Source: Branchiostoma floridae (Eukaryota; Chordata; Leptocardii; Amphioxiformes; Branchiostomatidae). Taken from it: 64,000 nucleotides of DNA. A program made the position numbers and the translations under genes. This document shows positions 1 through 37,900 of the stretch, piece by piece. Location: contig NC_049983.1 in the NCBI RefSeq assembly GCF_000003815.2, forward strand, positions 596,524-660,523, in the 5' to 3' direction. The notes under the pieces are model-generated. The model saw nothing but the letters and a program-made list of their open reading frames with translations, did not search any database and was not told where the DNA came from. Within the stretch, counting starts at the first letter, position 1; every line of letters begins with the position of its first letter.

Positions 1-3000
1 CCTCAGGACAATCTCAGCGTCACTTGTGGAGCCCAAGTCGGCAAGCACCACTCGCCCTGTGACCAAGTAGCAATAGATATGTCAGTAGGGTTTCAACACA
101 TTCGGAGAGCTCAAACTAGAGTTCAACAGTGCCAACTAGAGGTCGTGTTCCGAAATAAAGCATCTTGGAGAAAGACGTATGCAGTCGCCATTAGTTAGCA
201 CACGATGTCCTCGGATGATCGGGAGAGTGTTTGATTAATTGCTTGCTTGCTTGGCTAATTCATGGAATGGTTGCGCTCATATAATCAGACATTTCTTCTT
301 CATGTTTTTGATAGAAATGAATACTGTTTAGGAATTCTCTAATTACATATCGGACAACAGGAAAAGATATGTATGTACCTCCATCTCTGATTTCCAGTGA
401 CATAAATGTGGCGGATGACATCAGAAGGTAGTTCTGTCCTCTACCCACAACCACCTGCGCGCTGGTGTCGTGCCCAGGATTCCATGGGGCGAGGGTGTGG
501 TCCTGATCCGGGCACTGATGGCCGCCATTCAAAGGGTCAGTCACAGGGTCAACATCCGGGCATGTCCATTCTAGGCAAAGATACAATACAACGTTAACGC
601 ATTAAATGAATAACAAAGGTATTTCTACACATTAGTGCGTCATTTAATCCACGTGACACCTTTGTCACCTTCTGCAGGGAAATTCTGACTAATTAACATT
701 GCACTGCAGCTGTAGGTGTCGCTACTTACAAATGCAAACCCAAACGGTATTTGTATTATGTACGTGCATAGCCAATGCCTTTGTTTACAATGCATTACTA
801 TATGAACCAGTCAGTTTTTACCCAAAGGAAGATAACAAATGGTCACCCAAACGTTAATTGAATAAAACACTTAGTTATGCACAATTTTTTGAGAGGCATA
901 CCAACCTGATGAAACTATCTACGGATTACATACGATGTGAGAACAAAAAATGGAAAATTAAGTTCCAAAACTGAAAAGTTAATCCTAGAAACGTGCATGA
1001 TTGTTGTAAAGATTGTTTGGAAACGACAAACATACCTCCATAAACCTCCACTTCGCACAGAGCGAGAATCCGGTTGCTGCCAGGTAAGGTGATGCTGACG
1101 TACCGCCCCTTCAGGCCGCCGACCTGAATGGTCTTCTCTGCCTGTCCCGCAGGAAAGCTGAAATCTCCAACAAGCTTTTGGTTTTCCGTCACGTTGCTTT
1201 TGTCTCCAATGTACACCTCGAATGGAGTGATCCTGTCCCAGCAACAGTCCTGTCGGTTGAAGATGGTGATGTGGTCGACTTCTTGCGTTCTTTCCAGATC
1301 GACGTACCACCAGGGGTTGTCTTCTGTGTCGGTGTGAGAGCAGGAGCCATCTGCAAAAGACCCACTGCGACCACCGTCTACAGCACGACCTGGGTTACCG
1401 TTCCAAGACACACTGCTCTGGTAGGCAGGCTTGTACAACGCTAGGTTCGTAAATCCACCTGCATCGCCTGAACAACGAGATATAAAATCATTTTAGGGAG
1501 CACACCCCAGTTTATCTGGGGTTTCAATTGGAGGCGGCATACCCTTAAGTCTAGCGACCAGCTCTACCAGGGAATTATCCTGAAGCAAAATAACTGTCTA
1601 TGGGGTAAACGGATATTCCTTCAGCTACAAGACCAACTTACTTTTGATCCTTCAAAACATTATTTTCATGTAAAAAAATAATGTAAAAAGTCGGGCATTT
1701 TAGCATTGAAAAAAAAAACATGAAGAAGATTTTTCCGGCAAACACGACTGATACTGTCAGAAAGAGTAAAACCTAGCGAGTAATCCAGCCAATTATAAAG
1801 AAAAGTCTAGTGCTACAGTTTTTTAATCATCCATGGCGCGCAGCATTGCAACTTGGCTTAACACAGCGCTTCAGAGGTCAATCTAGGTCACGGGCCTGTT
1901 TACATCGAAGGCGCAAGAATATCCGGAAATGAGAGTCGGGCCAAAACATAATTTGCACCCAAAACACACCTTTTCCTACGCTTTTCAGCCATGATAGCGT
2001 TTAATGTCATTTCGCAGTAAATAAGGAGAAATGTCAACTCAAACATAAACCCTCGGAAGCCTTTCGTCACTTTTTTGTCGCGCTCTACCACGGACTGGGG
2101 TGTGCACCGTTAAGATCTCACGAAAACTATATACATTTCCTATGTACATTTGGAATATCAATACAAACAATCCTGGCATTCTAGTTGTTGGTACATGATG
2201 CATTAACACTTTTGTAAAACATGGTTCCTACCATGCAAGAACGATATTTTACTATGTGTTTGTACCATCTATATATAATGATGTATGTCTATAGATTGAT
2301 TAGGACTTAAATGATGTAATCTGCATGTCTGTAAATTACATTTTATCTCAACCTTACTCGTATATCATCATGACCTCAATGAAAATCGACCTGGAGACCG
2401 ATTTGAGCTTTCTTTAATGAATAAAGTTCAATCAAACACCTGGTAACGTTCCCACCGTTGCCGTTTCATCTGATGTTACGAACCCACGACAATGGCAAAC
2501 CAACTGAGAGCAATGAGTTAGTGAGTAGACCCATGCAAACTAAAGCTGATCACTCACTGAGAGTGTCTGTTGGTGACAAATTATTGCAGAAACATTGCCA
2601 GGTTTACAAAAGAGTTATTACTATTACTATTACGAAATTAGATATAAGATAACTTTGTCGGGTGTCGTAGTGTTACCACTACTGAATCAAAATATCACAT
2701 TATGAAGATTCATCAGAAAGAACCTGTTGGCGTCTAGTTCGAGCCTGGTTCGCACGCAACATAGCATTTTGTGATTTTTTTTCACATTTGAAAATCCCAT
2801 CTTTAGGCAATCAATTGCCTCTTTGGCTACTGGTAAGGAATGTTTTTGGCAAAAAAATTCGACAGAAAGCGCGACCCAGTGAACACAATTCAACGCCGTT
2901 ACATTTATGACAAGCAATAATGAATGAATGAAAGACCTTTATTATGCTCTGGAACAAAGAAGCTGCCAATATTGTAACCTAAATAAGATAGAGGATGAGT

Positions 3001-3485
3001 GTCACTTTATTGTTGACTGTATTTTATACACCAACAAAAGAAACGTCCTCTTCGATTGCATGTAAGACATGGTCCATATTTTCTGTTATATGAATAGTAA
3101 AAAGATTCTAATTCTTTATATGCAACTAGATAAATCTTGAACTATTAATTATCTGACCTATTGTTTACAATTGTCTTAAGAAGCGAGAAGAACGTACATA
3201 CTAGCATATTAGCATATAGTAGTCTGTGTAGATGTAAAAAAAATGACACATTTCTTATGTCAAATTATGCCTTATCACTAGGACCTGTACTTGTTTGAGC
3301 ATAAATGTACAATAAAACTCTTTCATTCATTCGGTAATAATAAGCAAGTACATTATCTACATATGTAATATACATCGATTGTAACATCGATCCACTAGTT
3401 TACGGTAAGGTTTCTTACCTGTACCCAGTGATGGACAGGTAGCGATCAGGCCTAGTAACAGTATCGGGAGACTTAACCCTGACAT
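1..3485 (-). CDS. Secreted fucolectin-CEMIP-like chimera (5' part; runs off left edge)
   Basis: Four exons are visible on the minus strand: 3419-3485, 1036-1467, 379-570 and <1-56. All junctions are GT-AG and all are phase 1. Exon 1 encodes a hydrophobic signal peptide (MSGLSLPILLLGLIATCPSL). Exon 2 is a complete F-type lectin (F5/8 C-like fucolectin) domain, about residues 27-166. It holds the family's fucose-binding signature: a His in CSHTD, then 26 residues, then RQDCCWDR (R-x-D-x4-R). Exons 3-4 match the start of the CEMIP-like gene at 22851 (CPDVDP, TPWNP-like, VVVGRGQNYLL, SSATF, LEI.DGG; then VLADLGSTSDAEIVLR), that is, the beginning of a G8 domain. The product is predicted to be extracellular, combining fucose recognition with a hyaluronan-binding CEMIP body. 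Exon 3 carries an extra CPDQD segment absent from the paralogue. The fusion is supported by frame and phase but not by a transcript. Confidence 0.82.
571..1035 (-). other. Intron 2 of the fucolectin-CEMIP-like gene
   Basis: This AT-rich intron separates the lectin exon from the first CEMIP exon, with donor GTATGT at 1035 and acceptor CTAG next to 570. I see no further coding or repeat signal in it. Confidence 0.6.
1468..3418 (-). other. Intron 1 of the fucolectin-CEMIP-like gene
   Basis: A two-kilobase intron lies between the signal-peptide exon and the lectin exon. Around 2270-2445 the plus strand reads like a LINE 3' tail, with GACCTGGAGACCGATTTGAG followed by AATGAATAAAG. A clearer LINE relic follows at 2922-3332. 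The rest shows no feature. Confidence 0.5.
2922..3332 (+). mobile_element. Non-LTR retrotransposon (LINE) 3' fragment
   Basis: The plus strand encodes a short C-terminal zinc motif typical of non-LTR reverse transcriptases: CQYC, then IEDE, then CHFIVDC and ILYTNKR. A non-coding tail ending CAATAAAACTC follows. The ends are inverted copies of GAATGAATGAAAG.CTTTATT (2922-2943 and 3311-3332). It is a dead relic inside the intron of gene 1. The clade (CR1/L2-like) is a guess. Confidence 0.5.
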
Positions 3486-17699: not shown

Positions 17700-18446
17700 T
17701 CACATGTGACTTTGCATGTGTTTCTCCAGATTTTCCAGCCGACTGAACTGCCTGCTGCACTCCTCACACCTGTAGGGTTTCTCCCCTGTGTGAGTACGTA
17801 TGTGCCTTGCCAAATTACTGAGTTTGCCAAACTGCCTGCTGCACTCCTCACACCTGTAGGGTTTACAAACTGTGTGAGTTTGCATGTGAGTCTTCAGGTT
17901 ACTTAGCCGACTGAACTTTCTGCTGCACTCCTCACACCTGTAGGGTTTATCCCCTGTATGAGACCGTATGTGTCTCTCCAGACTTCCCAGCTGACTAAAC
18001 TTTCTGCTACACTTCTCACACCTGTAGGGTTTCTCACCTGTGTGAGTTCGCACGTGTCTTGCCAAATTACACAGTTTACCAAAGTGCCAGCCGCACTCTT
18101 CACACCTGTGTGGTTTCTCCCCTCTGTGAGTTTGCATGTGAGTCTTTAGATTACTCAGCCGACTGAATTGCCTGCTGCACTCCTCACATCTGTAGGGTTT
18201 CTCACCCGTGTGTGTCCGTATGTGTTTCTTCAGACTTCCCAAATGACTGAACTGCCTGCTGCACTCCTCACATCTGTACGGTTTCTCACCTGTGTGACTT
18301 TGCATGTGAGCCTTTAGATTACTCATCCGACTGAACTGTCTGCTGCACTCCTCACACCTGTAGGACTTTGTGGTGGCTCGTCTGTTGCGGATGTCCCGTT
18401 TTGATCCGTTCTGATTGATGTCATCAGAGCCACTGTTTGTTGCCAT
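17700..18446 (-). CDS. C2H2 zinc-finger protein, eight tandem fingers
   Basis: A single uninterrupted coding exon encodes 248 residues. A 33-residue N-terminus (MATNSGSDDINQNGSKRDIR and a basic stretch) precedes eight C2H2 fingers of the CEEC-x12-H-x3-H type. They are joined by TGEKP linkers; two linkers are altered (RGEKP before finger 4, TVCKP before finger 7). Fingers are near-identical outside the recognition positions, with patterns such as SRMSNLKAH, SHLGSLKKH, GKLCNLARH and SQLGSLERH. I place the start at the ATG at 18446; a further in-frame TTG upstream is not a credible eukaryotic start. An acceptor-like CTCCAG near 18481 suggests a 5' untranslated exon. The product is probably a nuclear DNA-binding protein of unknown target. 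Its stop lies 68 bp from the minisatellite. Confidence 0.85.
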   Translation of the reverse strand: MATNSGSDDINQNGSKRDIRNRRATTKSYRCEECSRQFSRMSNLKAHMQSHTGEKPYRCEECSRQFSHLGSLKKHIRTHTGEKPYRCEECSRQFSRLSNLKTHMQTHRGEKPHRCEECGWHFGKLCNLARHVRTHTGEKPYRCEKCSRKFSQLGSLERHIRSHTGDKPYRCEECSRKFSRLSNLKTHMQTHTVCKPYRCEECSRQFGKLSNLARHIRTHTGEKPYRCEECSRQFSRLENLEKHMQSHM

Positions 18447-21076
18447 AGTGATCAAAACTGAAGTCTCCTCTGTAGTCCTGGAGTAAGAAGATTAACCACA
18501 GTTAGTTCTAGCAAAGCTTCTCCTATTATGTCAGTCAGTCCTCATTCTCTGTGAGTCAAGATAGACTTAGCTATGAAGTTAATGATTTAGGGAGAACAGA
18601 TGCTGTTTCAGTCTAACTTCAAAAGTGGACACCAGACATTGCACTTACAAAATAATTATGTTTTGTGATTTGTTTAAATATAGTCATGCTGACAGAGTTG
18701 CAGTCACAGTTGTGTGGTGCCTGTCAGGGATATTGCTAGGCTCTGACGCCTCAAATCTGTCCCATTGGACTGCAGAGGTACATTTCTGTGTTTAAACGAG
18801 TAGGCCATGGTGTCTATTCATTGCCATGTTGATTTTAACTCAAACTTTTAAAAGAAATCTGGGGTCCAAATATAGCCTTGTGACACTGGGGGTCCCATTG
18901 GGGTCATGCCTAAAAGTGAAAAAAGCCCATGAACTCCTTGGCGGGGTTCCTTTTTCTAATTGTGGCCGAAGCACTTGGTTAAGCTATTACCTGCAAGATA
19001 TCTTGATTCAGTCAAGCTGCTGAAAATTGATGTCTGGAAGAAGACAGGCAAAGCCTAGAATGACTACAACTGCTGAACACCCACTTACACTCTTGCTGGC
19101 TATGGGCACAACCCTTTGTTGTTTCCACTTACTCTACTTTTTCCCTTGCTATCAATAAAAGAAAATTGCTGGCTATAACTTTGGTTAATGGCACCGAGGA
19201 GGTTATATATAACCCCTGCAATCAATAAAAACAAGTTTACTAAAGTTAGTGATTCTCCCCCTTAATCCGCCTACACAGAACTACAAGAACAACAGATAGT
19301 GAAATACACCTTGCATAAAGTCGCCTCAATAAACACAACTACTGTACAATGTCATGTACAACAGTGAGAGAACCTCACCCAATTCCCTCCATCTTCCATG
19401 ATAAAATCATGATGTTGTGGCGGGAAACTCATCATGCGAGACGCTATAGGGGTTTAGAGAATACTAGATAGAACTCAAGTCAACTTCTTGTTCGAACACA
19501 AACATCCCTGTTCCTCTGCACAAATCGCCTATGTTTTTTAAACGTAGTCTCCTCGTTTCCGGTTTGATATGGAAGCATTTCTATAGTTGTCTTCAATATC
19601 ATACTTTGAAGTATCTGTATCCCCCTTCAGAGCTTCCTATCGGCGCATACGATATTTTCTGAGTTTTCTCTCAGACACCGAAGCGAATTAAATATAAATC
19701 TACCCTTTATATCCAACAAACCCAACGTTAAAAGATTACGGGTTCTCCAGATACTCTCTGAAGTTGTTGCTGACAGAAACTTGCTGAGAATTTCACGCAG
19801 ACGGAAGGCTTTTGGAACAAACGTCGGGGCATAGCTAGCGGCCAGTGAGTGAGACACAGTTAAAACATGTTTTCATAAAATAATCTCCCTGTCAAATCAA
19901 GGAGCTTTTACTGATAAAAGCTCCTTGGTCAAATTGATGATTGCAGAGTAGACAAGATCTTTGGACGTACCTGAGTGGTATGTAAGATGCGATCCCGTCG
20001 ATTTAACGGCAAAAAGTCGTGTAAAACTGTGAGGCGAAAACTCACTTCTTTCCCACCTCAACACACTTGGTGGACGGAGGCGCGGAGGTTTTTCGAATCC
20101 GTTCCGCGGAGCTGTACAGGTAAGGATATGCTCCGCTGAGTTGGATTCTGGATGAGTTCCGCGGAGCCAGATTCAGAATGGGCTGCACGGAGCCACTTTC
20201 GTAATCAGGCGAGGGGACCCCAGTGGCTTTATAGGGTGCTGGCCCGAGAAGTCTGCGGTCTTGGAGTTCACGCCTGAAAAGTCCAAGTCAGTATTATATG
20301 CATGTTGACCCTCTAGTCCTCTAGGAGGGTTCGGGATCGTAGAATTCGAAAAAAAAAAACTCGTCCAACTAACTGGTCTGGTTGAAAACCTCCGTTACAA
20401 CCGTGTGCACAAGTTAGATTTTAGTATCTTTGACAGAAAGTTGTGTTTTCTATGTGTTTTTTAACTGCGTGCAGAAGACCTGGTTTGTATCATTTTCTTA
20501 AACATTGTGAATAGTTTCTGATATACCAGTTCAAGATTATGACAATGCCAAGTAAAGCAATTTCTTTACCTCAGTTTGCATGTTTAAAGCATAAAGGATG
20601 ATTAAATATATGCAGAAATGCTACAGATATGCAGACATGATAAAGATTTTGGTGTTCCCAATCAGTCTGTTATTGTACTGCAGTGAAACATCCGATTTTA
20701 ATATCTCGATCCATAGCGATAACTGATGTAAATTTCATACTTATATGTGTAAGTCACTTAGTAAATACCTCAGTAATTATGTACTTATTCAAATCATTTG
20801 CATAATATTTTTATAAGCTGTAAATATTTCAAGGTGGTCTGAGGTACCCTGTGATACTGAGATATTACAAGGGTGCCGATGAATTTATACGAATTTTCGA
20901 AATTCATACAATGCACTATGTATACGTGTAGAATTAACCCATGGCTAATTTTATCATGATCATATTCAATACCCTAATTTGCTTAGTAGTGAATCCTATG
21001 ATATGAGTTCCGTCAAACACGTTTGTATTCTGTGTGTGATTCGTATGGATACTCCATTATGTAGTACATTGTATTG
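18447..21076. other. Upstream region of the zinc-finger gene
   Basis: No coding exon is supported. It holds a perfect 13-bp-stem hairpin (19898-19927) and a CCGCGGAGC-rich stretch at about 20090-20200, where GTTCCGCGGAGC and related words recur. The latter may belong to the first exon/promoter of the minus-strand zinc-finger gene or to a repeat. Confidence 0.4.
19898..19927. repeat. Perfect short hairpin
   Basis: CAAGGAGCTTTTA, loop CTGA, then TAAAAGCTCCTTG: a 13-bp perfect stem with a 4-nt loop. The function is unknown. Confidence 0.6.
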
Positions 21077-22850: not shown

Positions 22851-25800
22851 ATGGCTACGCGTGCACTTCTAGCAGTCTTACTGTTTTCTCTACCTGCTCT
22901 TATTTTGTCACAGCACACGGGTAAGGCAGTTCTGTTGTAGGGTATCTATGTCCCCGACTAGCCATTGTCGAAGGTTGCTTATCAGACTTGGTGTACACCA
23001 CATATCCATATTTTGTGCGGTGTCGATACCGTAATAAGGATCTATTTGATCTTTCACTCATTTGTTCTCTGTCTGCTAATAGGGTAGAGAAAACGTTGTT
23101 TTTTTATTTTGATATATTGGATGCAGATTTTAAACATCTTAGCTGGGCTTTTGCTGACTTTATTTTTAGCTGGAGCCATGTTGATTTGATTATATGGATG
23201 ACGTCCTGGCACGCAATATTCTTGTCCGTTTGCGACAAAACTGTAAATTATTCAAAGCAGATGCAAAATTAGCAAATATGTGCTACATCTTGAAAAAAAA
23301 ACCTCGGTCGATTCCAAAGACGATGTAAAAGAACAAAGATGAAAAATCTATTGTTCTTTATACCATACTCTAATTAGATTTCATAAAGAAGGTAATTTTT
23401 TGTCAAACTTAAAGTTTGTTTATTCGCACGCTCGAATTAAATTCGAGGTTCATCGAGGATGACATCCATATGACCGAGTCAACATGGCCTATTTGTAAAT
23501 ATTTCCATGGGAAGGTCAGCACCTGGATTGCGCTCCTCAAACACGCACTATGCCAGCATGAATTCGAAGTTATCTTATTAATGTCACATCAGTGTAATTT
23601 TATTTAACCATAATGTTGATAATTGGATGATTCTTACAGAGCGGTTATATTCTAATTCACATTAATTGTTAAGAGGATTGGCAAAAGCGCTTTATTGCGT
23701 ATCGAAGACTTCTCTGGCACTCATACATACATAGGTAAGATAAACAAAATGTCCCCTCATAGTATGTTAAGGTGGAGACAAACAAAATGGGATTAAGATA
23801 AACAAAATAACAAGTTATCTTCTCCTAGTGTATAATTAGATTTATGTATGGGATGGAATGCATTTATTTCTTTTGAACAAGCAGCAAGAAAGATTAACAG
23901 CCTAATTTGTGTGTTTTAGACAAACGTCTTCATTGCAAAATAAAATTTAGCGGTAGTTAACGTTGCAGTCGAATTTGACCAAGAAGATGACGGAACGAGG
24001 ATATGAAATATTTTCGTTCTGGAATTGTCATGTCATCACAAAATCAAACACAGTAGGCCATAAAACAGTCTGCATTATTTAATTTTCAGGGTGCCCGGAT
24101 GTTGACCCAACGCTGACCCCATGGAACCCTAGGCACGACCCCACCGCGCAGGTGGTTGTGGGTAGGGGACAGAACTACCTGCTCCAATCATCCGCCACCT
24201 TTTTCTCACTAGAAATCAAAGATGGAGGTAAGTGAGTTATAGAAATGTTGCTAAGACTTCCATTGTGTCTATTTATTTAAACATGATTTTGACAACTTAA
24301 ACTTAGATTCACTATGTCAGTTAAGACAGTTTGCGTCATTCTGAATGTACATGGGGCTGTGGACACCTTTGCACTGGCATGGCCGTTTAAATCCTATATT
24401 AATTTGAAAACAACTTACACATCGGATTATGAAAAAATATGTAACATTTCCGAGCTGTATGTTGCAACGTTGAATGTTTCGACATATTTTATATACTAGT
24501 AAATGTTTTATTTCCAAAATAATGCCCTAATTGCAAGAACGGTCTCAAAGTAAGAGTAATGTACATATAACAACACTGGTTACTAATTAAGTATAAGGTA
24601 CTGCGTTTACTATTTGGTTGGGTTTCACTTCTTCGTTGAAGGCAGTTGAACTCCCCAACATGCACGTTCTGCGCATTGAATGATAACATGGTACATGTAT
24701 TTCCTAATGTAGCCTGGCTTTAGCAGACAAGAAGTGAGTACTACATATGTTATCAATACAGGTCGTGTTGTATTTGCCGACCTTGGATCTGCAAGTACCA
24801 ACGAGATCATTCTTCGGTCACGTGAGATCACCTTGGGCAGCGATGGCGAGTTCCACATCGGCAGTGAGACCTGCCCGTACCAGGGGAAGGCCACGGTGTC
24901 CCTGTACGACCGCAAGGACGACCAGAAGAACAGCAAACAGTTCCTGGTCATGGCAGGTGGGACACTGGAGATCCACGGGCAACACAAGCTGGCGTGGACA
25001 CAGCTCACACAGACAGTGCCACAAGGAGGACTTCCTAAGGTAAATACTGAATTTACGATAGCTCATAATCCCTAGGTATTTCATACTACAAAATCTCATA
25101 CAACATTTTTCCTTAAAGTAGAGTACATGCACATGTAAAGCTATTTCACCTTTATCCGCGGGGTAACCTATATCCGCTGTGTTAGAAAAAAGGGTAATTC
25201 GGGATATTTAATCGGCGGACGGTGGTTTCAAAATGCAATTACAACATTGCATTTTGAAACCACCGTTCGTCGACTTTATGTTCCTAAATACTCTTGTCAT
25301 TAAGAACAACGGATATGGGTTATCTTGTGGACAGAGCTGAACTAGCACCTTTTTACATGTCATTCATTCACTTGAACGTTTTGTTCTAAAGAATGGTTTC
25401 AATTTTGGGCCAAAATGTTACAAAATGGGCCACCTCTATTCAAATCCAGGGAGCCTACTACTACACATCTGACGGTAAGGGATGGGTCCGTGGGATCCAC
25501 TTGCGCGTCATCGACGAAATAACCGGAGCTGTGGTGGACTCGGCAAGGTTCGACACTTACGCCGACGCGGAGAACAGCCGAAGTTTGGCGACATTCATCG
25601 ACCAGGTACCTTCGGGAAAGATCGTGGCTCTGGCGACGTTCGACGAACCATCCCGAAATCTAGAGGACTCTGCAAAGGAGAAGCTTAGAGAGCTTGGGAG
25701 CGTGGAGGTGGACTCATTGGGAATTAGGTGAATTTTACGTTTGAGATCACATTGTAAACAATCACTGTATACTAGTATCAGTCATATTATTAGTAGAGGT

Positions 25801-28800
25801 GAACAATTTACGTTTATGACCGCATCGATAGGCAGCGCCACCTATAGATGCAGTACAAGTACAATGTGAAGCAATCAGCACTGCCTTGACAAATGTGACA
25901 ATCCCCGAAACGTCTACTAGGTAGAAATACGTACAACAAGGATCTGAAGTAACAACGTCTTCATGCAGTAACGTACAAACCTGATAAAACTATTAATGAA
26001 GGATTATGATCTTCTTTTAGAAAATCGAGACTTTGCACGATCGATGTAAAGGTGGCTTATCTGGCGTTATAACATTCTCATCAATGTAAATCGAATTTGA
26101 CGATAGTTGTTTTCAATTAATTTTTCAGGAATCCGTGGGTGTTTGTCAGTGTAAAGGGAGATCCCAGCGTTGCTGTTGAACAAAGGATCCCATACATAGG
26201 TAAACGAGCTCCTCTAGGTGTTGAGAACACTTCCTTCTACTATGCTTTTATCGGCCATAATTTGTCTCAGAGAAACTTATGATTTCTTAGACAAGTGATT
26301 TTTTTTGTCTTTCATTCCTGTTACAGACACAGAGACTACTGGTACAGCAACGGTGACAGCTATCTTTGATGCCTTCTTCGGATCCTTCAAAGTCGTCCTT
26401 AAGAGTGAATGGTTGGCAGGTAAAGACTTATGGTTTATACCATGGGCACTTCAAGACAGTGAGCCCAATATATTGCTGTCTCGTTCGAAAAGAAAGTGCT
26501 AATCGATTAAATTCTTGTACAAATGGTAATTAGGGGAGGGGAACACCCCCATGCATGTTAAAGAACCCACCACACCTTTTCAAAAAGAGTAGGAGCATAC
26601 CCGGTGTGTGATGGAGCAAATCCGTCTGTCTGTAGTTCAAATCACCTGGATGCAAGCCTGGCGAATCTCCGTCTCGTATAAGCCACACAGTGATTTACAC
26701 CATTTACCTGAATTGGACGGGAGAATTGGAGCATTATCCGTCTTGTATAAGATGAAATGGTACGTCAACACGGGCCGTAAGGGGAGGTATAACCCCAACG
26801 ATGTTGTATGTCTCTATTACTAGTTCTAATATTATATACAACAATTTGGTTGGAATTACTCAGGAACGAGATGCAGTTTTTCCATCGAGCCAACTGCTGA
26901 CGAATACGTCATCAACCTGAAGGATGACGTCACTTCCTGGCAGCCTGGGGACCACATCGTGCTGGCCAGCACGGACTACAATATGGAGCAGGCAGAAGAG
27001 TTCCAGCTGCTGCCGTGCCAGGAGTGCTCCAGCCATCAGGTCAAAATCAGCGGTAAGACACTTAATCTGTTGATATACTTTCTGATGAGTTAGCCTGGGT
27101 ACCATCCTCCGCAGTGCTGGCTCAATCCTTTCACTTGCTAACTGGTTAGCCGTACTGACTGCTTAGCAAACGAAAGCATTGAGCCAGCGATCACTACAGA
27201 GGATGGTACTCAGGCTTGTGTTGAGGCATAGATACATCAGAGCTCTGCATGCGGCATCCCTAAGGAAAGACGGTGTGCGCCATAGTCTTTCTGCAACTTA
27301 TGATCCTCACTCCTGATTGAGTGACGTGTACTATGTATCTGTGTATGTATCTATGTCATCAAGGGTTTTGATGGTTTAAAGTATTCTTTGCTATCAAAAT
27401 CTCCGATGGATGACATGAATGTATTATATCGCCTTGTAACATGCCCCTCATGCAATCAGTTCACAAAAAAAGGCAACTGTCCGCAGGTACAACCGAGTAC
27501 ATGCACTTTGGGGAGATAACCGATGACGTAGACTTGCGGGGAGAAGTCGGTCTTCTGACTAGGAACATCAAGTTCCAGGGGGAGGTAGAGGACAGCTGCT
27601 ACGGAGATAATTTCTGTCAGTTCTTCGACTATGATACGTATGGAGGGCATCTCAAGGTACGTCCCATGTTTTGCATATGTTGGGGAAGCTTTCTGCATTT
27701 GACGGATACAGTTTATTGATAAAAAGCATTATGTTATAGTCAATGAACCGCCATGACGTTATAATCGGGTGTTCTAGACCGGTTGATAACTCTCCATATC
27801 ACATGGGTTTCCATCGAATAAATCTAACGCACTTCGCGCGCACCGAGTTCGGTGCAGTCGAAATTTTGAGTACCGCATTCGGACGCCGGAAAAGATTTTG
27901 TTACAAATTTTGGATCAAGCGCACCAGATTGTCTCAACTTGGAGCATTTCTCATTCAAATATTACATAAATAAAATTGTGTATTCCGTTTACCTCTCAGT
28001 ATAAGCCATCTCAAAGGTCGGATCACCCTCCGGCCTTCAGCGATGCCACGTATACTTGTGGTTGCGGGCTGGTACCTTGGGATCAGGTTATATAAAATAC
28101 ACTGTGTTGTATTCCATATTTACTGGGGCTGTATTCGAGCGGTGACGTGCCTATATCTTCAGGTTTTGCAAGGCTTCAAGAACGTTCACTTGTCCGGTAT
28201 CGAGTTCACCCGCATGGGCCAGCAAGTGCAGGGCAGCTACCCTGTCCACTTCCACATGGCCGGAGATGTGGACGAGGTCGGAGGCTACAGCCGCCCAACG
28301 TACGTCCGAGAGCTGTCCATTCACCACTGCTTCTCTCGCTGTGTGACCATTCATGGCACTCACGGGCTGCTGGTCAGTCATTATAATGATATCAACGACG
28401 ATTTGTATTCGATAAATGAAGCATTGCAAGATACATAAACGATTAAAAGTCAAATCAGAAATTTGTCATCAGCTTCCATATATCGACAGATAAGAGCTGA
28501 AGAAGAGTGATGGAAGTCACTTGAATCGACCTGAAGTAAATCTCCGTTTTTATCCAGCTGTAGACTTATACGTAGAAATTGAATGGTATTTGCACTTTTA
28601 TTAGCGCAGTTAGGTCGCAAATACAATGTCTTTCGTATCTCGTATATGCAGGTCCAAGACACGGTTGGTTACGACACACTCGGGCACTGTTACTTCTTGG
28701 AGGATGGCTGGGAGCAGCGTAACGTTCTGGACCACAACCTGGGCCTGGTAACCAGACCTGGCACCTTGCTGCCCAGCGACAGGGACACCAACATGTGCCG

Positions 28801-31800
28801 NNNNNNNNNNNNNNNNNNNNNNNNNNNNNNNNNNNNNNNNNNNNNNNNNNNNNNNNNNNNNNNNNNNNNNNNNNNNNNNNNNNNNNNNNNNNNNNNNNNN
28901 NNNNNNNNNNNNNNNNNNNNNNNNNNNNNNNNNNNNNNNNNNNNNNNNNNNNNNNNNNNNNNNNNNNNNNNNNNNNNNNNNNNNNNNNNNNNNNNNNNNN
29001 NNNNNNNNNNNNNNNNNNNNNNNNNNNNNNNNNNNNNNNNNNNNNNNNNNNNNNNNNNNNNNNNNNNNNNNNNNNNNNNNNNNNNNNNNNNNNNNNNNNN
29101 NNNNNNNNNNNNNNNNNNNNNNNNNNNNNNNNNNNNNNNNNNNNNNNNNNNNNNNNNNNNNNNNNNNNNNNNNNNNNNNNNNNNNNNNNNNNNNNNNNNN
29201 NNNNNNNNNNNNNNNNNNNNNNNNNNNNNNNNNNNNNNNNNNNNNNNNNNNNNNNNNNNNNNNNNNNNNNNNNNNNNNNNNNNNNNNNNNNNNNNNNNNN
29301 NNNNNNNNNNNNNNNNNNNNNNNNNNNATTAGAAGCCGCTTAAATGCGGACCCCATTTGCTAGGGCATTTCGTGCAATTATCCGAATGGTGCAACAAAGC
29401 AAAGTTATTAAAGCTGGACCACACCACCGCTGGATTTGGGGACGTCGTGCAATTAACAGAAGTGTGCGATTATCCCTTATGCAATTGACTTGCTTCAAAT
29501 GTATTTGAAAAGCATATTGCACGTACAGTCTCAAAGTAAGAGAAAAGTAATGGAATACATAATCCTAGTTTCCAATCAAGTATAAGATACGTATAGTACG
29601 ATGCTGGGTTTGACGAACAGCCCCCCTCTTTGCATAAAAGCAGGTTTAGTGATATTAGAAGGAACGCAGGTCGTTAATGGTGAAAACTCGCTGAAATTGA
29701 GGTAACAGTTCGAAATAATAATGATAAGTTCCTTTCGGCCTTGTAGTGAATACACTAAAACATATAACTTATTTTCCATAATTGTATCCATTGATCAATT
29801 GAGCAATATTTACATAAACTTTCGTGGACAGGTATCTTTTCTTATAGCGTCCCCTTCCTATCTCTCATGGATGTGCACGTATTGTTTTATAGGTCATGGG
29901 GATATGGTTCATCTTCCACCGAGAACCCACAGGTCCGTCCGCAGGGGCTCTTCCCAAATGGGAGGCGGAGCGAACCCCACTAGGACGCCTCTACAACAAC
30001 AGAGTGCACTCCAATGGAAGAGTATGCATTGGTCATGGAGTAAAAATATAGATTATTGAATTTGAGTGGAAACGGTTTGGTAAGGGAGGATAGTAGATGA
30101 GAGTTTGACAAAGATTACCCACAAACGGATTGTACGAAGGCGTTGTCATAATGTCAACATACATAATGTCAACATACTTTGATATTGGACTTTTCCTTTC
30201 GCAACCAGCAAAGCCTCGCCTGCTTACGTTTCCCTTTCTTGCTTATCATACATTTTCGTCAGAGATTCTAACTGGAGTGCTCCTTATCGTCGACCGCCAT
30301 ATGTGGCCAATGTATGTGGCGCTTTTGAGGCGAGAACAATCGCAAACGTGGCAAAATATGTAGCACGCACCCTTCCCCCCGGTCCGGTTTCAGTACTGGT
30401 GTTGACATTCTTATATCCAGGCAACCTCCTTGATCTACCAAATGCGCCGTCTATCCTTATCCGTGGATCAAGGAGGCTGTCTGGATAAGAAAGTTAATCC
30501 CATTTGAGACTTTACAGGTTACCTTTAGGATACCTTGAGGTTGTGTCCAAGAAAACTCCAGTATTCTATGTTCTACAAACCGGATGATACTATTCTTCAA
30601 TGTAAGCATATTTGTGTTGATGGTGATTACCTGTACATGCCTAGTCAATTATTGACTTATCGTTTTTAGCAAGCACAATATTTTGTTTCTCCCTTCCCCA
30701 GGCTGGATTGATGTTGGACGGGGGAGTGAAGACCACACAACCGACAGCAAACTCACCGTATGAGTACCTGTCCATAGGGCACGGAGGAGGGGCACGGTAA
30801 GGACTGTCACAACTAATTATATTAGGTTATTCATTCGTGCCGGCTGAAAATTGCTCAGGTTTGACAAGACATTGACTAGGTTTACACAGTCACGTGTTTT
30901 CGAGTGCACCCAAACAGCCAAATAACTTTTTGCCAATGTAAAACAGAGGAAACGTAAATACATTTATACATTGGTGAAACTGAACGTGCGTTGAAAACTA
31001 GATTTATGAAACATCCACGACTGCCAGCTAAGATGTATGTCAATACATATACATGAAGTCTCACCGGGAAACCCCGATTTGCTGGACAAAGTCAAAATCC
31101 TGGATTCAAAATCTTGGAAAGAGGACTGAAAGACGCTGTGTACATTCGAGCTCACCACCTACGACCCACTGCTGTAGTCCCGTGGTTTAAACTTACTTTC
31201 CGGAAGCTGTATAGTAGACGGGTCCTTTCCATGAACAAGGCCGACGGAATCATTCGAACATTTTGTCGGACAGTCCCAAGAGTGTTCTGTTCATACCTTT
31301 CGCAGCGAATTGACATCGAACGTCCAGCAGCGCCGGTGGTGAGACGACCAAAGTATTGCCTCGGTTTTGAATCACTACCAACTTGCAAAACAAGTTGCCC
31401 AACATTTAAAACATGTGGAACACTTATGGCATGAAAGAAACACATTTTACATTTCTACTTACACAGTATAGAGTCTACAACAAGTCAACACGGAAAACGC
31501 GTGCGTAACCAATGCAAGTTACTAGTGTGATCTTGTCGAGGACTTGCATGCCTTATACATGTTATATATTTCTATCTACGGAAAAACTTGCTATTTGCAG
31601 GTACAAGCCTCACCAGAACGCCGACCTGTCCCAGCCGCGGGTACCTGCCATGATTGAGGGGCTCATCGCCTCCAAGAACTGGGTCTGGGGCTCCTGGATA
31701 CGGGGAGGGGACATCTGGTTCGACAAATGCGCGTGAGTTAACGATATAAACAGATAGATATAGATAGACAGATATAGATAGATAGATAGATAAATACATA

Positions 31801-31856
31801 GATACATAGTACGTACTTCGCTGTACGTATAAGCGATATGTTTGACTGTATAACCA

Positions 31857-31939
<83 letters not shown>

Positions 31940-34900
31940 TTGATTACTGTCGCAGATTGATCCTTTTTCTTCTTTTCAGTTTCGTGGACAACGGCATAGG
32001 ACTTACAATGGCGAGGTACGGCACGTTTTATTCAAACTAAATGTGATAACGCACACATTGCTATGGCATGATCAAGCATGATTAAGCATCAAAACGCTAA
32101 CCTATCATAGAAGGAATTCATAATAAGTCAATGTTGTTTTACAAGTTATGATATTGATTTTCCTTGTCAACGTAAATTGCCTTAATTGTTCTGTTTAGGT
32201 CTTATTATTTAAACGTATATACTGTAACGAGTGAGCAACTTGCATATGGCATTGTCTTTTGTGGATGTTAGTTTGTAATTTTTAGTTTTACAATTAAGGT
32301 TTTTGCTCGTCAGACCCCCGTACAAAGTATCTATATATATCGCTTTATCAGAATATCAAATAGGAAACGTACTGGTTAATTTGACTCTTTGCGTTTCGTT
32401 GATACAGTGAAGGCGCCTTCCCTAACGACGAAGGGTCTACCCAGCAAATTTGGAACAGTATCTTCATCGGGGAGAGTGAGAACGTGGGCACGGAAAGCGG
32501 GGCCAGGGTCTGGGGAATGGGCGGGGTGAAACCGGTGGAGAGGAGCCTACCTCACGGCACGTACGTAATATACGTAATGTATATTTTTAAAGTTGATGAA
32601 ATAGTTGTTACATACTATAATTATTGCTACCGGGGTATTTTGGGGCCGAGCCGAGCAACGGGTTGAATTTAAGTCGGACCTAAAATAAGGGAACCAGTGA
32701 CAAATAAACACCGTGACCTCCCCGTGGAGAACACCAACGGGGGAACCACACCGTATTCGGCAGTCCATCGGAACAAATTTGTGGCTTCGGAGCCCGATCG
32801 GGGGTACATCCCTAGTATAGGCTTAGGTCCCAATTTCCAACAAAACGAAACGGCAACAGCACGGAAAAAATATATTCATGAGCATAATTTGCGCATATTC
32901 CTTGAAAAACACTTTTATTTTTCGTTTCCGCAAACATCCCGGCCGGGACCCGGTTTGGAAATGGGACCTAAGCCTTACTTGGAAACCTAAGCCGTAATAA
33001 GATACTCAATACAAAAGTTACCAAAGCAACAGTATAATTGTTTCCGACTGTAATGACAAGTAGCAAAAATACGTAACCTAAACTAATCTTTTGTGGTGCC
33101 TAACCACATCAAAATTGATGAAATCATGCTTTTTGTAAATAGGAACCATCCACTGGTTGGACTAGACGTATACGACGGTCCAATCTTAGCCGACGGTTGC
33201 ACCTTCAAGAGGTACGCCACAGCACCGGAGTACGACCGCTGGTCCAGCGCTTTAGGGTTCCACAGAACCAACACCTGGCAAAACACCCCGACCAGTAACA
33301 TCACACGGGCCAAATTTGACAATGTGAGTAACGTTAGATGTCCCCTTTTCGTTCCGTGCGCTGTCAAGATACTTAACCTCTACTGAGTGCTTTATTGCCA
33401 CTTCTCATGATGTCAAGTGACTGATTATTAAGCATTAAGATTTATATACAAATAACTTCATGATTAGAGTGATTGTTGTTGTCGAACACTTAGCTCAAAA
33501 TGCAGCTTGGTGATATATAAAGATAAGAAGTAACAATGGTTCGCCTTTATCTACAGGGCAACTTATATCCGTTGTTTTTAAAACCAGGGTATTCAGGGAT
33601 ATCAAGTTGACAGGCGGTGGTTTCAAATTGGAACTTTTTAGAAATCGTCTATTTTAATCCACCGTCTGTTAACTTTATATGCTGGTTACTTGTATTTGTG
33701 TTCGAAAGTTAATATATGTTTAAGCCCTATCAACTGTTGACCGGTACACTTTTGTCAGGTCCAAAGTCGTATGTTTCTGGGTGGGCCGGGACTGCCGTCA
33801 TTCGGTCAGAACAACAAAGACGGAGATAAGACCAACATTCTGCACGACCTGGACGGGAGCCTCACCGGCTACCCGGACAGCTACTTAGTCGGGCCGGACA
33901 ACTACCTGGTCAGGAACCCCGGCTGCGTGGAGAAGCCGGAGTGGCGCGGTACCTTCTGCAGCGGGAAGTATGGCCAGGTCAGAATACCTATGCTTACATG
34001 TTCATCACACAGTAGATCCATGCAACTCTATATCCTTTCATCGGAATTTGAAAAAGAACTGGAGAATTAAAATCATTTCAAAATGTTCATGATTTCCTTA
34101 AATTCCTGAATTTCTAACTTCATTTAGTTTTTTACGCTTTCGGCATGCACCACCTGGTAATCATTCATTTGGGGATTTTTTTTTGCTATCAGTGTCTACT
34201 GTATAATACATGCACAATAGTAAAGCAATTATGCTATATGCGGTGACCAAAAGACCTCAATAAAACCACTTTTCCACCAGACAGCGATCGCTGAACGACC
34301 ATACAGTGACCAATGTTGCATTCATTATTGGGATACAGTGTAAAATGCAAACGTAAAACACAAAACGTTTAAAAAGTATCTTTACGTTTGAAATTCGTTG
34401 AGCAATCTGTTAATTGGATATAGGAGAATTCTTTGTACACAACCAGTAGGTACTTACATAGCTTACGTTTCGATGTCTCTCAGACACCTTCGTCAGAGCT
34501 TCTAGCTGGAGTTATGCTTCTCACCGCCATATGTAGCCGATGTAGGTGGCGCTTTTGTGGTGAGAAAACAATCACAAACGTGGCTAAGCTTGTATCCCCC
34601 CTCGTCCCGGTTCATCGCTGGGGTTGACTTTCTTATACAGATGGCCTCCTTAATCCACCGTGCCCGCCTGTTGTCTTCCTTTTCTATGACCAATATCTAT
34701 ACATATAGCGGTGAGAAGCAGAACTCCAGTTAGAGGCTCTTACGAAGGTGTTTGAAAGACATCGAAACGTAAGTTATGAAAGCCTTACTGGTTGTGTACA
34801 ATGAATTCTCCTATATCCTATACTCTACCAACCTGATGAAACTATTCTTGGAAATCTATTGATTGTTCTGTCGCTCAGCGGGTGCAGCGAGGGAGTAGCC

Positions 34901-37900
34901 TATAGTAGGATGTAAGTGTTACAGATTCAGACAAACTTGTACACTGATCAATTGCGACGTAAGATTTATGGAAGTTTACGATTGCTTCATGCACTTTGCA
35001 CAGTGGTGGGTGCAAGCGAAGCTACCGAACACGCTGAAGATGTCCCTGGTTCGTGACGAGTATCCAGACCATCCAATGACCCTTGCCGGACCGCTATCTC
35101 ATGCTAACAGTTACCAACAGTACCAGCCTGTGGTCACGCTGAACACCTCCTACACCATCCACTGGGACGGGCGGGCTCCGGAACAGATCTTCCTTTACCC
35201 CATAAACTTCAACAGGTATAACGACCCTAACATGGCAAATGTTACGGTCTTATTTACACCATTCTCCTACGCAGAGGGACCACAGTCGTGTCGAAACTCC
35301 TAGTGGTCACCTCTGCTGTCTGCAGCACTCAGATCAGTTACTGACCGCAATGCTTATAAATATCAATGAGCTTACCCTTATATGGGAATCAGTCAGTCAC
35401 CGCCCTTTGGAATCAGGCCTTTGCAAGATCCCTTTCGAAAACAAAAAGGACAAGAAAGGCCTAATCTCTGATTGGCTGACATCTGCTTTGTGGCGACGCT
35501 CACAGTAACCGCTGGTGAGCCTCCAGACAGCAGGGCCACAACAGGCAGTCAGCTAGTGCCGTCGGGGACCTTGCGTAGGAGAAGGATTTACACAAGTGTC
35601 CGTACAGGGTGTAGACCTGGCCAGACTCTCGGTGTTTCACGATTAAGCTACGACCTCTGTTTGTCGCCGGGTCCCGCGGTTGATTTTAACTGCGAGATAA
35701 AAGGAATCCGAGGGCCTGACCGTGACGGTGACAATACCGTGATGACTAGTTTCCATGGTTGTAGAGTATTCCGAGCTCCTATTGGACTAATTTTCATAGT
35801 GATAAAGAACTAAGAGTCCCTATCCTACATTGGTGACGGCTATAGGCAAGGGAATCATTGTTCTATTGCATTTGAGGTGAATTAATAGCCTCAAGCTCTC
35901 TGGGAGGGGCCAATCAACTCCTGACAGCCAAAAATTGTGTAAACAGTCTAGCAAGTATCTGAAGATTTTGCGGTTTCATCTTTCAATTCCTTACTTAGGG
36001 ACCTTTGCAAAGATACCAAATTTGACAGGCCGGAACTTAAAGCCTAAGCTACAATCGCGACATTAAGTCATCACCCTACCCGGTGCCGTGACAGGCGGTG
36101 TTTCAAAAAAGGAGCTAGCAGTTGCGCCTAAGAGGGCCCATATACTCAAGAATATCTCGAGAAGGAAGTATCCGAATATTTTGCGGTTTTCATCTTTCAA
36201 TTCCTTACTGAAGGACCTTTCCAAAGATACCAAGTTTGCCGGACTGGAACTTAAAACCTAAGCTACAATCGCGACATTAAGTCATCACCCTACCCGGTGC
36301 CGTGACAGGCGGTGTTTCAAAAAAGGAGCTAGCAGTTGCGCCTAAGAGGGCCCATATACTCAAGAATATCTCGAGAAGGAAGTATCCGAATATTTTGCGG
36401 TTTTCATCTTTCAATTCCTTACTGAAGGACCTTTCCAAAGATACCAAGTTTGCCGGACTGGAACTTAAAACCTAAGCTACAATCGCGACATTAAGTCATC
36501 ACCCTACCCGGTGCCGTGACAGGCGGTGTTTCAAAAAAGGAGCTAGCGGTTGCACCTGAACAGGGCATGTATACTCAAGAATATCTCGAGAAGGAAGTAT
36601 CCGAATATTTTGCGGTTTTCATCTTTCGATTCCTTACTAAGGGACCTTTCCAACGAAACCAAGTTTGTCAGGCCGGAACTTTAAAAAGCCTAAGCTACAA
36701 TCGCGACATTAAGTCATTACCTAGGCTAACCCCACGCAATGCAGGAGGGAATACTTTGAACTATTCTCAAGAGCCCATAACTCTGTATATTATACAAATA
36801 CGCAGCATGATATAAAACGTACAAGTCTTTGGCTCTTAATAATGACAGTCCCAATTTCGCCTTTGACAACAGTAAATTACCATTAAAAGAGAACTACTTG
36901 CCAGTGACATTCTGTGCTGAACGTTTGAAATGAAAATCTACTTACTATATTTTACTTGCAGTGGAGACTGGATCCGAGTAGGCCTCTGCTACCCACCAGG
37001 AACCACATTCGATGTCAGGTACCAACGACATGAGTACCGAAATCAGTGGAACAAATATCAGAACGAAGACGCCCAGCCCGTGTCCAGCCTGGCTGCTGTG
37101 GAGGCCGGCGACGGCAAACTCTTCTACTTCGAAGAAAGCACGGGGTAGGTAGAAGCTAGAAAGTCGCCCATTCAATGATCCTATTTGCAACTGTGCCCGG
37201 GCTCGTAGGGGGTGTAGCCCCGACTGGGCTCCAAAGACACAAATTTGTCCCGGTGGACCGCCGGATTTTTACTGGTGTTTGAACGATTAGGTTACGTCCG
37301 TTCATGTTGTCTTTATAGATTTAATATTTTGGATAAGCCCCTTTCATTGTCCAGTGACAATAGGTATATGTCTATGTATGTGTGTGAACATGTACTGTAT
37401 CGTTCTTTACAATATTCATAAAGCACAAAAAAAGAGATTAGGCCATGTTATTCATTTGCTGCCGGATCCCGGGTTGATTATATCTCCGAGTTAAAGAAAT
37501 CCAGGGTCCCGACCGTGCTTCAAAATAGCCCGGTAGCTAGATGGTGCACCACGGGGAGACGCATTGATTACGCCTGAAAGTGCAGAAAAAGACTCCATGC
37601 ATACCTAGAGGGACCCTTTTTCCAAATGGGACAGTAGCATAAGTACAGGATAACTATGATCTTGTCGTCATGCCTCTTCCAGTCTGTTGTTCCTGAAAAT
37701 CCGCGCAAACTATGATCGGGAAGGCGACAGCTACTGTTCAAACATGGGCTGTGAGAGGATCAGAATTGCGGCAACAATGACAAGTGACGCGGTCAGCAAC
37801 TGTATGTCTACAGCGTATCCCAAGTACAGCCTGACACCGACAGAGACTGTCCCCATGTCCAGTTTCCTTAGTATGGCCCACGACTGTACTGGGTGTGGCG

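Follow-up and report, generated by a model that had tools for sequence, protein, structure and literature searches.

An F-type lectin exon ahead of the G8 domain in a CEMIP-like gene of Branchiostoma floridae: a predicted fused gene within an array of seven

In Branchiostoma floridae, a CEMIP-like gene (gene A) is predicted to carry an F-type lectin domain (FTLD) between its signal peptide and its G8 domain. Read on the minus strand, the first exons of gene A occupy the left end of the window, that is, the whole 64,000-nt stretch of DNA analysed here (Table 1), and the gene was traced leftward through the adjoining sequence to C5:567100; the CEMIP body is outside the window. The order of domains in the product is signal peptide, FTLD, G8, ILEI, CEMIP beta-helix, CEMIP domain X and ILEI. 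An earlier note on this DNA had described the FTLD as fused, in one frame, to the start of a CEMIP-family protein, and this is borne out by the final model, which is open over 1428 residues, with 26 coding exons and no internal stops. At the level of sequence, gene A is very probably a real fused gene. The whole explanation that we favour, a fused gene whose lectin targets polysaccharide handling, seems to us rather probable.

Table 1. Coordinates of the window and of selected exons of genes A, B and G (phases of gene A according to the gene model)
Feature	Window position	C5 position	Strand	Length (nt)	Phase	Remark
Window		596524-660523		64,000		
Gene A, exon 1	3419-3485	599942-600008	-	67	0:1	start codon and signal peptide MSGLSLPILLLGLIATCPSLGT; ends in phase 1
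Gene A, FTLD exon	1036-1467	597559-597990	-	432	1:1	
Gene A, exon 2	379-570	596902-597093	-	192	1:1	WTCPDVDP...NPGHD...; CEMIP body starts
Gene A, G8 exon	1-56 (first 56 nt)	runs past window to 596299	-	281 in total	1:0	left end placed by hand
Gene B, internal FTLD exon		556638-557069	-	432	1:1	directly after first ILEI
Gene G, candidate signal-peptide exon	22851-22920	619374	+	70	1	pattern search; one of two candidates
Gene G, exon 2	24090-24227		+	138	1:1	
Gene G, G8 exon	24762-25039		+			G8 profile match and gene model

Three automatic gene models were built from paralogue conservation and splice-site scores, blind to the coordinates of the earlier note. The settings of the second model were altered after the outcome of the first; the third, with looser settings, contained many spurious repeat-derived exons, including extra small ones in genes D and E of the array described below, and only those of its coordinates that agreed with homology were kept. 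The FTLD acceptor (position 1467), both edges of exon 2 and the right edge of the G8 exon (base 56) were exact in all three models, and the FTLD donor in two. Exon 1 was exact in one of the three, being missed by the first and shifted in the third, which also put a spurious exon between the FTLD exon and exon 2. The junctions proposed earlier, 3419/1467, 1036/570 and 379/56, were reproduced exactly by the second model, with the same strand and phases.

In the final model, 14 of the 26 exons are identical to those of the second automatic model, one edge was shifted by hand in eight so that length, phase and homology agreed, and four lie beyond the region of that model, two small exons of which were dropped. 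The introns have GT..AG boundaries in 25 of 25 cases, partly by construction. The intron between e21 and e22 is 16.9 kb long and contains two assembly gaps, so only their order, strand and phase connect the last four exons to the rest. The same intron holds inverted repeats adjoining assembly gaps, at C5:569-572k (+) against 582-585k (-) and at C5:575.0-575.7k (+) against 576.5-577.2k (-). A version of gene A lacking the second ILEI was rejected: the region of the first two models was too short, and e22-e25, to which this domain is assigned by homology, lie further left.

The predicted protein has a hydrophobic start of 22 residues, judged by eye to be a signal peptide. Its counterpart in gene B gives a 22-residue tblastn match, 73% identical, in an exon of 67 nt, and a homologue of exon 2 is present in all six paralogues of gene A. 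Assignment of the lectin to a separate upstream gene was rejected: exon 1, with its putative signal peptide, ends in phase 1, and both sides of the lectin exon are in phase 1 as well.

The FTLD of gene A, 143 residues long, matches the Pfam profile F5_F8_type_C_2 above cut-off (72.8 bits; residues 50-148 of the protein), and NCBIfam profiles gave no match. It has the F-type fold, and among PDB entries it matches striped-bass FBP32 (3cqo, 1.1e-53) and eel agglutinin (1k12, 2.1e-20). A fold prediction from the single sequence had a pLDDT of 51, and an alignment of 43 rows was used instead. The fucose-binding signature H-X26-R-x-D-x4-R, earlier described as intact, is indeed so and occurs once; the Cys-Cys pair is kept as well. 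The family motif (His..Arg-x-Asp-x4-Arg/Lys) is printed with HX24 in PMC5712786, yet the residue numbers given there for the eel lectin AAA yield 26. The exact spacing of 26 residues is found in four of the five FTLDs of the array, that of gene A included, and is 28 in C1, one of the two domains of gene C; the other, C2, lacks the Cys pair. AAA (1k12) and FBP32 (3cqo) are free serum lectins, whereas the FTLD of gene A would form an extra head attached to a CEMIP protein.

The earlier proposal called for leftward extension of the sequence, and this, carried through twenty adjoining pieces, recovered the CEMIP body with G8, two ILEI stretches, beta-helix and domain X. The Pfam matches G8 (residues 198-314), CEMIP_beta-hel (586-798) and CEMIP_X (1063-1239) are all above cut-off, as is ILEI, whose better stretch of two is at 338-428; the G8 match at C5:596329-596571 scores 70.6 bits for that place alone. 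These domains stand in the order known from CEMIP (KIAA1199/HYBID) and TMEM2/CEMIP2. The likeness extends over nearly the full length: residues 18-1255 of the 1257-residue gene A body align with the human TMEM2 ectodomain (8c6i, 1180.8 bits), the alignment beginning within exon 2. Counted by hand, Arg265 of TMEM2, equivalent to Arg187 of CEMIP, aligns with an Arg in the gene A stretch WQRGINVRVID; mutation of this residue in either protein lowers degradation of hyaluronan (HA) according to PMC10206443. By its hydrophobic start, judged by eye, the product of gene A may be a secreted protein like CEMIP rather than a type II membrane protein like TMEM2. What distinguishes gene A from both is the extra FTLD between the signal peptide and G8.

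Gene A belongs to an array of seven CEMIP-like genes (A-G) within about 200 kb of C5, in a genome of 513 Mb and 431 contigs. Three of the seven have FTLDs: gene A one, in intron 1; gene B two, in intron 1 and between exons 5 and 6; and gene C two in tandem. All five are separate exons flanked by phase-1 introns. Four further matches in the stretch searched are weak (20-40 residues, E 0.39-0.98), and no FTLD was detected in D, E, F or G by tblastn at E<1, the matches there being limited to 20-30 residues at E 0.8-0.98. The models of these four genes are partial, and those of D and E contain stops in some runs.

Gene B thus differs from CEMIP and TMEM2 also by a second FTLD after the first ILEI; the donor of this internal exon is weak (gttggt). 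Its exon 9 (C5:554596-554787, minus strand) shifts frame part-way relative to the other genes of the array, which may reflect a broken gene or an assembly error. The upstream regions of A and B match in five blastn pieces (77-89%) that span the three exons and some intron.

Gene C has an open model of 27 exons and 1564 residues, and differs from CEMIP and TMEM2 by its two tandem FTLDs, which follow the signal peptide; the latter was located by pattern and is one of two candidates. Beside the gene, in inverted orientation, lies an orphan relic of an A/B-type signal-peptide exon without a start codon (C5:513260-513322, minus strand). The idea that the lectin and CEMIP exons are chance neighbours in one frame was rejected, the same design being present in three genes of the array.

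Gene G is on the plus strand of the window and spans positions 22851-39674, with no FTLD detected. The second automatic model picked a first exon other than the candidate in Table 1. Near exon 2, tblastn gave no FTLD match (E<1). The end of exon 10 and exon 11 probably fall within an assembly gap at 28801-29327. Elsewhere in the genome, no G8 outside the array had an FTLD within 20 kb, the places being compared by eye with the best 150 of 647 FTLD candidates scored.

The relation of the array FTLDs to others in the genome was assessed with 40 further loci picked from the upper part of the best 150 of these 647 candidates, and the nearest free-standing relative may therefore be absent from the set. 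The domain was recovered from 38 loci; the other two had no match at the threshold and are outside the tree. The five array FTLDs form one clade among the 43 genome FTLDs (SH-aLRT 97, by a quick method with no bootstrap), within which C1 branches off first and A and B1 are nearest to each other. At 33 of the 38 other loci, both best-scoring flanking sites are in phase 1, and phase-1 sites rank in the top two at all 38; hence the FTLD exon exists in this genome as a 1-1 module ready for use. In the array, it has the marks of a shuffled exon: the domain is a single exon between introns of the same phase and is not detected in the sister genes D-G. All ten pairs of array FTLDs have dN/dS of 0.15-0.32, which indicates purifying selection.

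These data suggest that one lectin exon was captured in the phase-1 intron 1 and was then duplicated and re-inserted. In the simplest history, the exon would have been captured once, into intron 1, and duplicated in tandem; the genes would also have been duplicated, and gene B would have received a second insertion, probably into another phase-1 intron. An FTLD exon with phase-1 introns would thus have entered the first intron of a CEMIP-like gene of the array with the frame kept; later copies would stem from duplication of the genes and, in one case, from duplication inside a gene. Gains of domains through a symmetric exon inserted in an intron account for fewer than 10% of animal domain gains in one survey (PMC2926785); the array offers a traceable case of such a capture.

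Comparison of A and C reveals two classes of exons. The FTLD, e2, e4, e5 and e6 have dS of 0.77-1.9, whereas in e3 and e7-e25 dS is 0.08-0.70, except for e15 (2.9 on 11 codons). Between A and B, some body exons have dN close to dS on few changes (e3, 0.04/0.04; e17, 0.08/0.07). The pattern of dS suggests that gene conversion has kept much of the body alike in the two genes, with divergence of the sugar-facing parts.

The product of gene A would be a secreted homologue of CEMIP with a fucose-binding head. We infer secretion, fucose binding and handling of an HA-like polysaccharide by ILEI and the beta-helix from the properties of the respective families. The head could hold the soluble protein on fucosylated glycans of mucus, matrix, cells or microbes, and the ILEI lectin-like domain together with the beta-helix would then bind hyaluronan, or a polysaccharide related to it, on the spot and help to depolymerise it. 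In the secreted protein, the lectin would take the part that the membrane anchor plays in TMEM2. Since trimers are known among F-type lectins (PMC5712786), the FTLD head could also cluster the CEMIP body; according to the authors of the TMEM2 structure, activity may depend on clustering or on placement at the cell surface (PMC10206443). HA is present in chordates from amphioxus to humans according to PMC10939387, and in mouse skin infection Cemip is the main inducible HA-degrading gene, its loss resulting in less infection (PMC7029423). A role in matrix remodelling or innate recognition, as first proposed for this protein, is plausible; the tether mechanism as a whole we put at even chances. 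It is a tentative generalisation, less likely than not, that lancelet-type animals have evolved a family of soluble, lectin-addressed glycosaminoglycan depolymerases, with a fucose head that can be switched by exon skipping, a body kept uniform by gene conversion, and diversification in the FTLD and the first ILEI region.

The main rival is a non-catalytic role, in which gene A would encode a multi-lectin recognition or adaptor protein that binds microbes or matrix through its FTLD and ILEI domains, with the beta-helix as scaffold; other amphioxus FTLD mosaics may act likewise. We rank it first because the enzyme activity of the family is disputed and because lancelet fucolectin mosaics have been discussed as dispensable defence genes. 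Published titles argue both for and against hyaluronidase activity of CEMIP and TMEM2, and for purified sTMEM2 no activity could be detected and no active site assigned (PMC10206443). The fucolectin-CTL-CUB-APEC mosaics of lancelets are discussed, in PMC12373286, as defence genes, most of those in the clade being dispensable. The FTLD, e2 and e4-e6 (the first ILEI) are also among the exons most diverged between A and C. However, the beta-helix exons e7-e12 are conserved, with A-C dN of 0.03-0.08, and the Arg needed for HA degradation is kept by the hand count. Such a role is possible, if rather unlikely.

It is also unlikely, and to us somewhat more so, that the FTLD is a cassette exon, skipped in the main transcript, with the fused form a regulated minor isoform. 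Phase 1 is shared by the end of exon 1, the start of exon 2 and both sides of the symmetric, 432-nt FTLD exon; skipping would be neutral for the frame and would give back the ordinary CEMIP form. In the second automatic model, D, E and F splice a 67-nt signal exon ending in phase 1 directly to exon 2. On the other hand, all five FTLD exons are under purifying selection, and the splice sites on both sides of the FTLD in gene A look ordinary.

A short lectin-only transcript would consist of the signal peptide, the FTLD and 36 residues read into the next intron, and would end at a poly(A) site of its own. The frame is indeed open for 36 codons beyond the FTLD exon, and one hexamer of the AATAAA/ATTAAA type lies about 387 nt into this 465-nt intron, but a single hexamer in an intron of that length may be due to chance. 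It is unlikely that the lectin exon has an end of its own and is never spliced to the next exon, since each of the five copies is flanked by phase-1 sites and is under purifying selection; we consider the lectin-only transcript improbable. That unrelated neighbouring genes or a misassembly were wrongly spliced together is hardly credible: there are assembly gaps nearby, and the gene models were built partly by hand from DNA alone, but the same order is seen in three genes of the array, the upstream regions of A and B match through exons and some intron, and the lectin exon of gene A has no Met codon and so cannot itself start a protein.

The fused gene, then, remains the preferred reading, and the earlier claim that its architecture is new stands in relation to human TMEM2 and to genes D, E, F and G, where no FTLD was detected, and is unproven in relation to existing databases; the fusion may already be present in public gene models. 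Bishnoi 2015 is said to be the main survey of FTLD mosaics, Branchiostoma included, and reportedly describes an expansion of FTLDs in lancelets. Searches of open-access PMC for an F-type lectin with G8, for a fucolectin with CEMIP and for G8 in Branchiostoma found none, and for CEMIP in amphioxus they gave nothing beyond a title on human skin cancer. Occurrence of FTLDs in mosaic proteins is known, in B. floridae among others (PMC5712786, section 13). Drosophila CG9095 and furrowed, sea urchin SpCRL and Xenopus PXN-FBPL (same source), as well as the lancelet fucolectin-CTL-CUB-APEC proteins (PMC12373286), resemble gene A in combining an FTLD with other extracellular domains. Unlike in gene A, G8, ILEI or CEMIP domains are not mentioned for any of them in the passages of these two articles that name them. 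The mode of HA degradation by CEMIP and TMEM2 is disputed; a CEMIP that occurs in nature and is tethered by a lectin instead of a membrane anchor would be an existing test case for the clustering or placement idea.

Two other features were observed in the window. A long open frame on the minus strand at positions 17700-18491 encodes C2H2 zinc fingers, with seven zf-C2H2 stretches. On the plus strand, an open frame at 55659-56495 matches the ubiquitin carboxyl-terminal hydrolase (UCH) domain and is probably an exon of a ubiquitin protease gene.
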